A stretch of DNA of 33,051 nucleotides. Origin: Acidimicrobiia bacterium. GTDB lineage: Bacteria; Actinomycetota; Acidimicrobiia; Acidimicrobiales; Poriferisodalaceae. A model generated the notes under the pieces. That model worked only from the letters and a program-made list of their open reading frames with translations. It did not search any database and was not told the origin of the DNA. The position numbers and the translations under genes were made by a program. Positions 965 to 14,211 of the stretch are shown piece after piece (positions within the stretch are counted from its first letter, which is position 1; each line of letters begins with the position of its first letter). The stretch covers positions 1-33,051 of the forward strand of contig JAJEBN010000016.1 in assembly GCA_022822525.1 (NCBI GenBank), in the 5' to 3' direction.

Positions 965-978
965 CTGAGCGCGCTCAG
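965..978. promoter_or_regulatory. Palindromic operator, copy A (exact)
   Basis: Perfect 14-bp palindrome CTGAGCGCGCTCAG in the gap between the divergent exporter and molybdenum hydroxylase genes. A plausible plus-strand -10 (TAGGGT, 982-987) starts three bases after it, so a bound protein would cover the promoter of the hydroxylase gene. The same sequence recurs exactly at 8464-8477 and 14198-14211 and in variants at 8449-8462, 10783-10796 and 12562-12575. A short perfect palindrome of this kind is typical of TetR-family operators; the family assignment is inference. Confidence 0.7.
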
Positions 979-1020
979 AACTAGGGTGCGAGCCGTCGCG
1001 AGAGCCGGAGGCTGAGCTCG

Positions 1021-12635: not shown

Positions 12636-14201
12636 ATGAGCGACGCCACCGAAACGTGGTCGCCGATGACCGGCGAGGAGTACATCGAGAGCCTGCGTGA
12701 CGGGCGCACGGTGTACTTCCAGGGCGACAAGGTGCGTGATGTCACCACGCATCCGGCATTCCGCAACAGCGTTCGTTCCATCGCCCGGCTGTACGACGCC
12801 CTGCACGACCCTGCCCAGCAGGACGTGCTGACCACCGAGACCGACACCGGTTCGGGCGGCAGGACCCACAAGTTCTTCCGGGTGCCGCACAGCGCAGACG
12901 ACCTGGTCGCAGCGCGAGACGCCATCGCAGGCTGGCAACGGCTGACCTACGGATGGATGGGCCGCAGTCCCGACTACAAGGCCTCGTTCCTGGGCACGCT
13001 GGGTGCCTTCCCCGAGTTCTATGGCGACTACTCCGACAATGCCAAGTACTGGTACCGCCGCAGCCAGGAAGAGGTGTCGTACTGGAACCACGCCATCGTG
13101 CACCCGCCGGTCGACCGGCACCTGGGCGCGGATCAGATCGCCGACGTCTGCATGCACGTCGAACGCGAGACTGACAACGGCCTCGTCGTGTCCGGCGCCA
13201 AGGTCGTGGCAACCGGCTCGGCGCTCACGCACTACAACTTCATTGCCCACTTCGGCCCTGTTCCGCTGCAGAATCCCCAGTACGCCATCGTTTGCACAAC
13301 GCCGATGGACTCCGAGGGCGTGAAGCTCATCTGCCGCAACTCCTACGAGCTGCAAGCGGCGGCCACGGGCAGCGTGTTCGACTACCCGCTGTCGAGCCGG
13401 CTGGATGAGAACGACTCGATCCTGGTGTTCGACCAGGTGCTGATCCCGTGGGAGAACGTCTTCCTGTACGGCGACCTCGACAACGCCAACAACTTCTTTC
13501 CCGCGTCGGGATTCATCCCGCGGTTCACGTTCCACGGCCTGGCGCGCCTCTGCGTGAAGCTGGACTTCATCGCCGGCCTGTTGTCCAAGGCGCTTCGGGC
13601 CACCGGCACTCGCGACTTCCGGGGCGTGCAGGCCAACCTGGGCGAGGTCATCGCAATCCGCAACCTGATGTGGGGCCTCAGCGATGCCATGGCCAAGAGC
13701 CCGGACCCGTGGGAGAACGGTGCTGTGCAGCCGTCGCTGCTCTATGGGATGGCCTATCGCACGTTCACGCCGTACTTCTACCCGCGCGTCAAGGACATCG
13801 TGGAATCGGTGGTCGGCTCGGGGTTGATCTACGTCAACTCGAACGCAAAGGACTTCAGTTCCGACGAGATCCGGCCGTACCTGGAGCGCTACGTGCGGGG
13901 CTCGAACGACATCCCGGCACTCGAGCGGATGAAGATCATGAAGCTGCTGTGGGATGCCATGGGCAGCGAGTTCGGTGGCCGTCACGAGCTGTACGAGCGC
14001 AACTACGCCGGCAACAACGAGCAAATCCGGTACGAGAACCTCGATGTCGCCGATTTCGAGGTTCCCGGTATGGGTTCGATGACCCAGATGCTCGAAGGCT
14101 TCGCCGAGCAGTGCATGGCCGAGTACGACCTCGACGGCTGGAACCTCCCGGGCTTCTTCAACCCCGACGACGTCTCCATCGTGGGCCGCGACTGGGACTG
14201 A
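12636..14201 (+). CDS. HpaB-family flavin-dependent aromatic monooxygenase (oxygenase component)
   Basis: 521 residues, the usual length for 4-hydroxyphenylacetate 3-monooxygenase (HpaB), chlorophenol 4-monooxygenase and pyrrole-2-carboxylate oxygenase relatives. ATG at 12636 is chosen over an ATG at 12621 because AGGGGGA lies between them, four bases before the former. Family features: FFRVPHSADDLVAARDAI early, NHAIVHPPVDR with later VSGAKVVATGSALTHYNFIA (central flavin/substrate region), VLIPWENVFLYGD, and the C-terminal IMKLLWDAMGSEFGGRHELY followed by ERNYAGNNEQIR, characteristic of the HpaB domain. These enzymes hydroxylate phenols with FADH2 supplied by a separate reductase (HpaC), which is absent here. 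Operator copy D controls it; its stop codon overlaps operator copy E. Confidence 0.9.
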   Translation: MSDATETWSPMTGEEYIESLRDGRTVYFQGDKVRDVTTHPAFRNSVRSIARLYDALHDPAQQDVLTTETDTGSGGRTHKFFRVPHSADDLVAARDAIAGWQRLTYGWMGRSPDYKASFLGTLGAFPEFYGDYSDNAKYWYRRSQEEVSYWNHAIVHPPVDRHLGADQIADVCMHVERETDNGLVVSGAKVVATGSALTHYNFIAHFGPVPLQNPQYAIVCTTPMDSEGVKLICRNSYELQAAATGSVFDYPLSSRLDENDSILVFDQVLIPWENVFLYGDLDNANNFFPASGFIPRFTFHGLARLCVKLDFIAGLLSKALRATGTRDFRGVQANLGEVIAIRNLMWGLSDAMAKSPDPWENGAVQPSLLYGMAYRTFTPYFYPRVKDIVESVVGSGLIYVNSNAKDFSSDEIRPYLERYVRGSNDIPALERMKIMKLLWDAMGSEFGGRHELYERNYAGNNEQIRYENLDVADFEVPGMGSMTQMLEGFAEQCMAEYDLDGWNLPGFFNPDDVSIVGRDWD

Positions 14202-14211
14202 GCGCGCTCAG
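14198..14211. promoter_or_regulatory. Palindromic operator, copy E (exact), overlapping a stop codon
   Basis: Exact CTGAGCGCGCTCAG. Its TGA (14199-14201) is the stop codon of the upstream monooxygenase gene, so the site serves as coding end and regulatory element together. The only plausible -10 before the next gene, TAGATT (14256-14261), is 44 bases downstream, further than at the other copies. Confidence 0.65.

Follow-up and report, generated by a model that had tools for sequence, protein, structure and literature searches.

A predicted catabolic regulon marked by a probable orphan 14-bp palindromic operator in one genus of Acidimicrobiia

Introduction

When a short palindrome recurs in front of transport and catabolic genes on one contig, does it mark a regulon, and which protein would read it? 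The question is raised by a contig of an Acidimicrobiia bacterium on which a first-pass annotation, made from the sequence alone, described several copies of a 14-bp palindrome, CTGAGCGCGCTCAG, and proposed a TetR-type operator. The window analyzed here is the whole of that contig (C26, 33,051 bp), part of a 3.55 Mb genome that is assembled in 114 contigs and is 98% complete. We designate this genome G000 and cite the congeners compared by G-numbers (11 congeneric genomes, G000 among them). A literature search found nothing on regulons, operators or binding motifs in Acidimicrobiia, and gene control in this class may therefore have received little attention.

Results

Gene content and a possible pathway

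The genes that concern us, with the Pfam families that identify them, are as follows.

3..824, minus strand: EamA transporter (PF00892), running off the contig start
1021..3276, plus strand: CoxL1, molybdopterin hydroxylase large subunit (PF02738/PF20256)
3449..8320, minus strand: liv importer operon, LivF, LivG, LivM, LivH and LivK (ABC_tran, BPD_transp_2, Peripla_BP_6); inner gene starts approximate
8566..9291, plus strand: RraA-like protein, predicted aldolase (PF03737; NF006093 above its cut-off)
9308..9742, minus strand: HbpS-like protein (PF03928)
9814..10764, plus strand: LLM-class oxidoreductase (PF00296)
10903..11475, plus strand: VOC-family protein, predicted ring-cleaving dioxygenase (PF00903)
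11570..12538, plus strand: zinc-type alcohol dehydrogenase (PF00107/PF08240)
12633..14201, plus strand: HpaB-type flavin monooxygenase, predicted phenol ring hydroxylase (HpaB_N/HpaB)
14288..16392, plus strand: LLM monooxygenase and alpha/beta hydrolase (Pfam); regulon membership unsupported

The first-pass annotation had missed EamA, the divergent gene at the left end of the window, and a further site on contig 28, in front of a second VOC gene (VOC2), lay outside its view. Judged from these families, the set would make up one aromatic-compound pathway, in which the importer is followed by ring hydroxylation by HpaB, ring cleavage by the VOC protein, an RraA aldolase and the Mo hydroxylase; we infer a phenolic aromatic substrate. 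HpaB matches solved ring hydroxylases (4oo2 at 692 bits, 6qyh at 635 bits) and scores below the NCBIfam HpaB equivalog cut-off (697 vs. 885). The matches of VOC and VOC2 to solved glyoxalase-family proteins are weak, and the RraA-like protein is closest to the putative transferase 5x15, with the aldolase 3noj further off. The 4-hydroxyphenylacetate (hpa) pathway has its own regulators, HpaR of the MarR family and HpaA of the AraC family. Our set resembles it in having an HpaB-type hydroxylase, a VOC protein and an RraA-like protein, but differs in that HpaB is below the equivalog cut-off, in the addition of a Liv importer and a Mo hydroxylase, and in that the frames scanned in the window show no MarR or AraC domain.

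Copies of the palindrome in the genome and beyond

The palindromes and predicted promoter elements of the window are listed next; the -10 boxes and all distances were read by eye from the sequence.

965..978, no strand: exact copy between the divergent EamA and CoxL1 genes; no -10 box placed with confidence
8428..8433, minus strand: predicted -10 of livK, TATGCT, 15 bp from O1; spacing kept in 5/5 genomes
8449..8462, no strand: predicted operator O1, CTGAGCGCACTCAA, over the predicted livK -35 region
8464..8477, no strand: predicted operator O2, an exact copy over the predicted rraA -35 region; tandem partner of O1
8491..8496, plus strand: predicted -10 of rraA, TACATT, 13 bp from O2 in 4/5 genomes and 5 bp in G004
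10783..10796, no strand: predicted operator CTGAGCGCAGTCAG, before the VOC gene
10824..10829, plus strand: predicted -10 of VOC, TATGCT, 27 bp from the palindrome in 4/4 genomes; invariant block TGTGACTATGCTC
12562..12575, no strand: predicted operator CTGAGCGCGCTCAT, before hpaB
12593..12598, plus strand: predicted -10 of hpaB, TAGTGT, 17 bp from the palindrome in the three genomes with the site
14198..14211, no strand: exact copy before the LLM monooxygenase; probably fortuitous

The coordinates and sequences reported earlier were confirmed, with exact copies at 965, 8464 and 14198 and variants at 8449, 10783 and 12562 that differ from the palindrome at two, two and one positions. A whole-genome scan found the three exact copies of the window to be all that the genome contains. 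The earlier judgment that three are beyond chance also stands: the number expected in the window is between 0.0003 and 0.0011 under models ranging from independent bases to a fourth-order Markov chain, and genome-wide a first-order model predicts 0.12 against the three observed. A reversed control word has no exact copy in the genome.

At one mismatch or fewer, six places are found in the genome: 965, 8464, 12562 and 14198 in the window, contig 28:16006, and contig 71:962, which falls within a called frame close to a hisB-like gene (the names hisB and pstC were assigned by reading). Gene fronts hold five of the six, among them 14198, which is not conserved. At two mismatches or fewer the genome has 65 places for the palindrome and 32 for the reversed word, which means that noise is mixed in at this level; at three mismatches there is no excess in the window (9 observed, 6.5 expected). 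Fifty of the 65 places were listed, seven in the window and 43 outside it. Of the latter, 36 fall within script-called frames, some possibly spurious, and the remaining seven outside frames comprise the conserved promoter site at contig 28:16006 and six others. The seventh place in the window, 18695, is inside a reading frame. The first-pass annotation had the sites only in control regions; this needs correcting, as 14198 overlaps the hpaB stop codon and 18695 is intragenic.

The inner 12-mer, TGAGYGCRCTCA, occurs at 29 places in the 11 congeneric genomes. By our own tally 15 of these are at regulon loci (965 and 14198 included), eight belong to one pstC-like codon stretch, and six are elsewhere, mostly inside frames. 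The occurrence in the pstC-like gene (G000:C37:49705 and seven congeners) is a codon coincidence and a caution for motif counts. Exact copies of the full palindrome are found in G005 and G010 at livK/rraA and in G004 at VOC2. Beyond the genus the exact word is present in one of 30 relatives (G030), where no related genes were found nearby within the 3-kb locus, and the motif is absent before rraA in three family members that have a closer rraA; the case therefore rests on one genus. A search for the tandem-site pattern across the genome collection returned eight stretches, two of them the livK/rraA locus and six within unrelated genes or at their borders. Literature searches did not find the exact 14-mer, and the matches to the inner 12-mer and to four variants include, by title, none on a bacterial operator.

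Conservation at orthologous promoters

Four promoter regions carry the motif in more than one species: livK/rraA, VOC, VOC2 and hpaB. The tandem pair at livK/rraA and the sites at VOC and VOC2 are present, some with substitutions, in every motif-bearing relative with a readable promoter. Genomes left uncounted at the affected promoters are G006, whose contig ends before VOC and hpaB, G008, whose contig ends after rraA, and G001, which is without a close rraA relative and has a partial VOC2. Genes in the relatives were called by our own third-position G+C script, and some are spurious or have wrong starts. The Fisher tests below assume independent columns and were applied to a motif already known, so their p values are descriptive.

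At livK/rraA, two abutting palindromes with a 15-bp pitch are found in G000, G004, G005, G006 and G010, one of the two being degenerate in G004 and likewise in G006. Invariant columns number 22 of 29 in the pair and 120 of 231 around it, a modest difference (p = 0.011). The VOC site, CTGAGCGCAGTCAG, is identical in G000, G005, G010 and G004, with 14/14 invariant columns against 60/118 in the rest of the aligned upstream region (p = 0.00017). The VOC2 site reads CTGAG, four partly varying inner bases and CTCAG in the five motif-bearing genomes, in which 11/14 columns are invariant against 23/96 (p = 0.00012); in the five others that have the gene in full, weaker palindromes of varying quality are found (7/14 vs. 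28/96, p = 0.11), and the -10 box TATAGT is invariant. One of these, G002, retains a fairly good VOC2 site, ATGAGCACGCTCAG, despite having no liv locus. The distance from palindrome to predicted -10 is 26 bp in nine of ten genomes at VOC2 and 46 bp in G000, where the spacer (contig 28, ~16020-16065) is 20 bp longer through a near-duplicate of CCCGAACCCCCCAAGATCT, a length close to two helical turns. The hpaB site, CTGAGCGTGCTCAT in G005 and G010, is diverged in G004, so that it is kept in two of three relatives; with G004 included it is not above its surroundings (5/14 vs. 38/106, p = 0.61). Conservation at orthologous promoters is thus strong at VOC and VOC2, modest at livK/rraA and partial at hpaB, and is not seen at 14198. 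This recurrence at four orthologous places supports the earlier proposal of a shared operator of a catabolic regulon.

Five congeners, G002, G003, G007, G008 and G009, have an rraA gene 94-95% identical to that of G000 with no palindrome upstream, and in the same five the liv genes are absent between EamA and rraA. In four of them (G002, G003, G007 and G009) VOC and hpaB follow rraA, and the palindrome is absent upstream of both; the LLM gene was not recovered by search in G002. Across the ten genomes with a close rraA that were compared, importer and tandem operator therefore occur together at this locus or neither does, the presence of liv genes being judged at the rraA locus alone.

The CoxL1 segment and the copy at 14198

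The copy at 965 begins 27 bp inside a segment, ~939-3314, that has no counterpart in the G005 region compared and that carries CoxL1 together with its own exact palindrome. The motif is absent before EamA in the four relatives examined, so far as the comparison goes, and the CoxL1 operator is known from G000 alone. The nearest relative of CoxL1, 68% identical, is in G018, a member of another genus, where it directly follows a VOC gene (66% identical) and has an rraA (66%) and an hpaB-family gene (31% to HpaB) beside it. Other congeners have no close CoxL1, the best among the matches listed being 55% identical. Since the segment holds its own exact site, and since the G018 neighbors include VOC, rraA and hpaB-family genes, it is plausible that CoxL1 is part of the pathway and either arrived with an operator or acquired one. 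In place of the segment, G005 has a gene of the metallo-beta-lactamase fold, alkyl-sulfatase-dimerisation type (Pfam, on the G010 copy), and at 3273-3386 of the window a short stub resembling both ends of that gene appears to remain.

The copy at 14198, which overlaps the stop codon of hpaB, has no conserved counterpart in G005, G010 or G004. At the corresponding position G005 has CTGAGCGCGCTAGG, and G010 and G004 retain little beyond the stop codon; a -10 box 44 bp downstream is kept in relatives. From this alignment the exact copy is probably fortuitous or very recent, and the LLM/hydrolase operon, which had been counted among the regulon members, is not supported as one. Downstream, at 14224-14239, the window has an inverted repeat, GCGTCGTTAGCGACGC.

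Discussion

Repressor, activator or neither

In our reading the palindrome, approximately CTGAGYGCRCTCAG, would be an operator bound by a single dimeric transcription factor, in all likelihood a repressor that a catabolic inducer releases; we give this reading a probability of roughly 0.6. That it is an operator is likely from its recurrence before import and catabolic operons and at four places in congeners. The palindromes at livK, rraA and hpaB cover the predicted -35 position, and those at VOC and VOC2 end just upstream of it; with sites so placed, a bound dimer would block RNA polymerase, and binding of a catabolic inducer would make the repressor leave the DNA. As far as sequence can inform the choice, a dimeric repressor is favored because -10 boxes persist where palindromes weaken (VOC2, five genomes) and because the rraA site of G004 is shifted, its spacing being 8 bp shorter.

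An activator that contacts RNA polymerase from a position ~34 bp ahead of the -10 box could show the same geometry; livK and rraA would then each have one site of the tandem pair at about this distance. Strict spacing, in promoters where no conserved -35 is seen, is the main argument for it: 27 bp at VOC in 4/4 genomes and 26 bp at VOC2 in 9/10, with the exceptional 20-bp insert in G000 amounting to about two helical turns. Spacing at livK is likewise strict (5/5), and the distal sites for rraA and livK would be centered 35.5 and 37.5 bp from the -10 box. However, the sole hpaB site is centered 24.5 bp away, the rraA promoter of G004 has lost 8 bp, and VOC2 retains its -10 boxes in genomes with weaker palindromes. 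We consider an activator the less probable of the two, though a serious candidate.

That these words are no operator but a product of chance or codon usage in a GC-rich genome might be argued from the lack of excess at three mismatches, from the pstC-like codon stretch that supplies 8 of the 29 12-mer places in the genus, and from the apparently fortuitous copy at 14198, but three exact copies where ~0.001 are expected, the conservation at VOC and VOC2 and the conserved placement at livK/rraA make this very improbable. Least probable of all is a palindrome acting as RNA, in a terminator or attenuator hairpin: the sequence could form a 5-bp stem closed by a 4-base loop, and the copies at 14198 and contig 28:16006 overlap an upstream stop codon, but the livK/rraA copies, lying between divergent -10 boxes, precede both predicted transcripts, the window copies are not followed by a T-run, and the window has no Rfam match.

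Resemblance to known systems and the search for a regulator

KstR, PsrA, PaaR and RutR control TetR-family catabolic regulons through short palindromic operators. The present case is like them in its gap-free 14-bp palindrome fronting scattered catabolic operons and an importer, but differs in that no TetR gene here has a good site or tracks the motif; to our knowledge, the palindrome matches no operator of the KstR/PsrA/PaaR/RutR type. The operator of FNR is TTGA-N6-TCAA, and the palindrome here, CTGA-N6-TCAG, has the same spacing, but no convincing CRP/FNR gene was found in the genome by a PF13545 search. With the corrections given, the original observation holds, as a predicted catabolic regulon with an orphan operator. 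A defined 14-bp operator, a contrast within one genus between loci with and without it, and an operator-bearing insert offer a cheap route to the regulator and also to the substrate, the pathway itself being known from sequence alone.

The regulator had been placed outside the window, and Pfam agrees in showing no DNA-binding domain in the main frames scanned. The TetR assignment fared less well. TetR domains were matched 12 times in the genome, in 11 genes, and a scan of all 12 loci found no good site ahead of any of them; in the ten genes whose start was checked, the closest word departs from the palindrome at 4 to 6 of 14 positions. No TetR group fits the distribution of the motif, the groups being judged by score and frame length on our own reading. 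The nearest-fitting member, contig 77:35051, is also in G007, and its own promoter is without the motif. All matches of G000 to GntR (3), IclR (7), MarR (9) and PF13545 (2), sets that overlap, were scanned and likewise showed no good site and no clear tracking. These five families (TetR, GntR, IclR, MarR and CRP-like) define the search; regulators of the relatives were compared by listing, with loci scanned only from the CRP-like and MarR searches. Proteins scanned in the contig 28 cluster are enzymes, binding or metal-handling proteins, or matchless.

It is possible that the regulator is genus-wide, since VOC2 sites persist, some in weaker form, in each of the ten genomes that have the gene in full. 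More tentatively, and with considerable doubt, we suggest that an orphan regulator outside the five tested families may run a lineage-specific regulon that joins importer and ring cleavage, and that new genes may arrive operator-ready, as CoxL1 would have done.

One lead, and only a lead, is a protein of the HTH_67 type, recognized by Pfam in its G010 copy and encoded a few kb left of EamA in G003, G005, G008, G009 and G010, that is, on the side beyond the left end of the window; in G010 it occupies L066 8901-9653. No word before the gene scores above 8.3, where the sites reach 18.9 or more, and of the five relatives that have the protein, three are without the liv/rraA motif. No solved relative was found for it, and a literature search under SCO6745, which we take to be a name for proteins of this type, found nothing.

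Several candidates were rejected. The best word in the regulator promoter regions scanned, ATGAGCGCGCTCGA, belongs to a GntR gene on contig 86 that sits near a VOC2 paralogue; its score is weak (11.9, on the scale where sites reach at least 18.9), it overlies the start codon of a divergent gene, and GntR matches above the cut-off were not found in G005 or G006, both of which have good sites. A second GntR gene, on contig 92, has a weak word (13.2) inside an adjacent frame. The better of the two PF13545 matches is at the cut-off (27.7 vs. 27 bits) and looks DtxR-type by eye, in a CRP/FNR search that used PF13545 only. For two TetR genes the weak words are downstream: CTGAGGTCGCTCAG, scoring 13.5, on contig 18, and a word scoring 13.1, in a frame read by eye, on contig 47. 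On contig 47 (L085 ~1210-1335), four to five tandem repeats like CGGCCGTGAGGCCGAG lie between the TetR gene and a CoxS-like gene, and are probably that regulator's own operator array.
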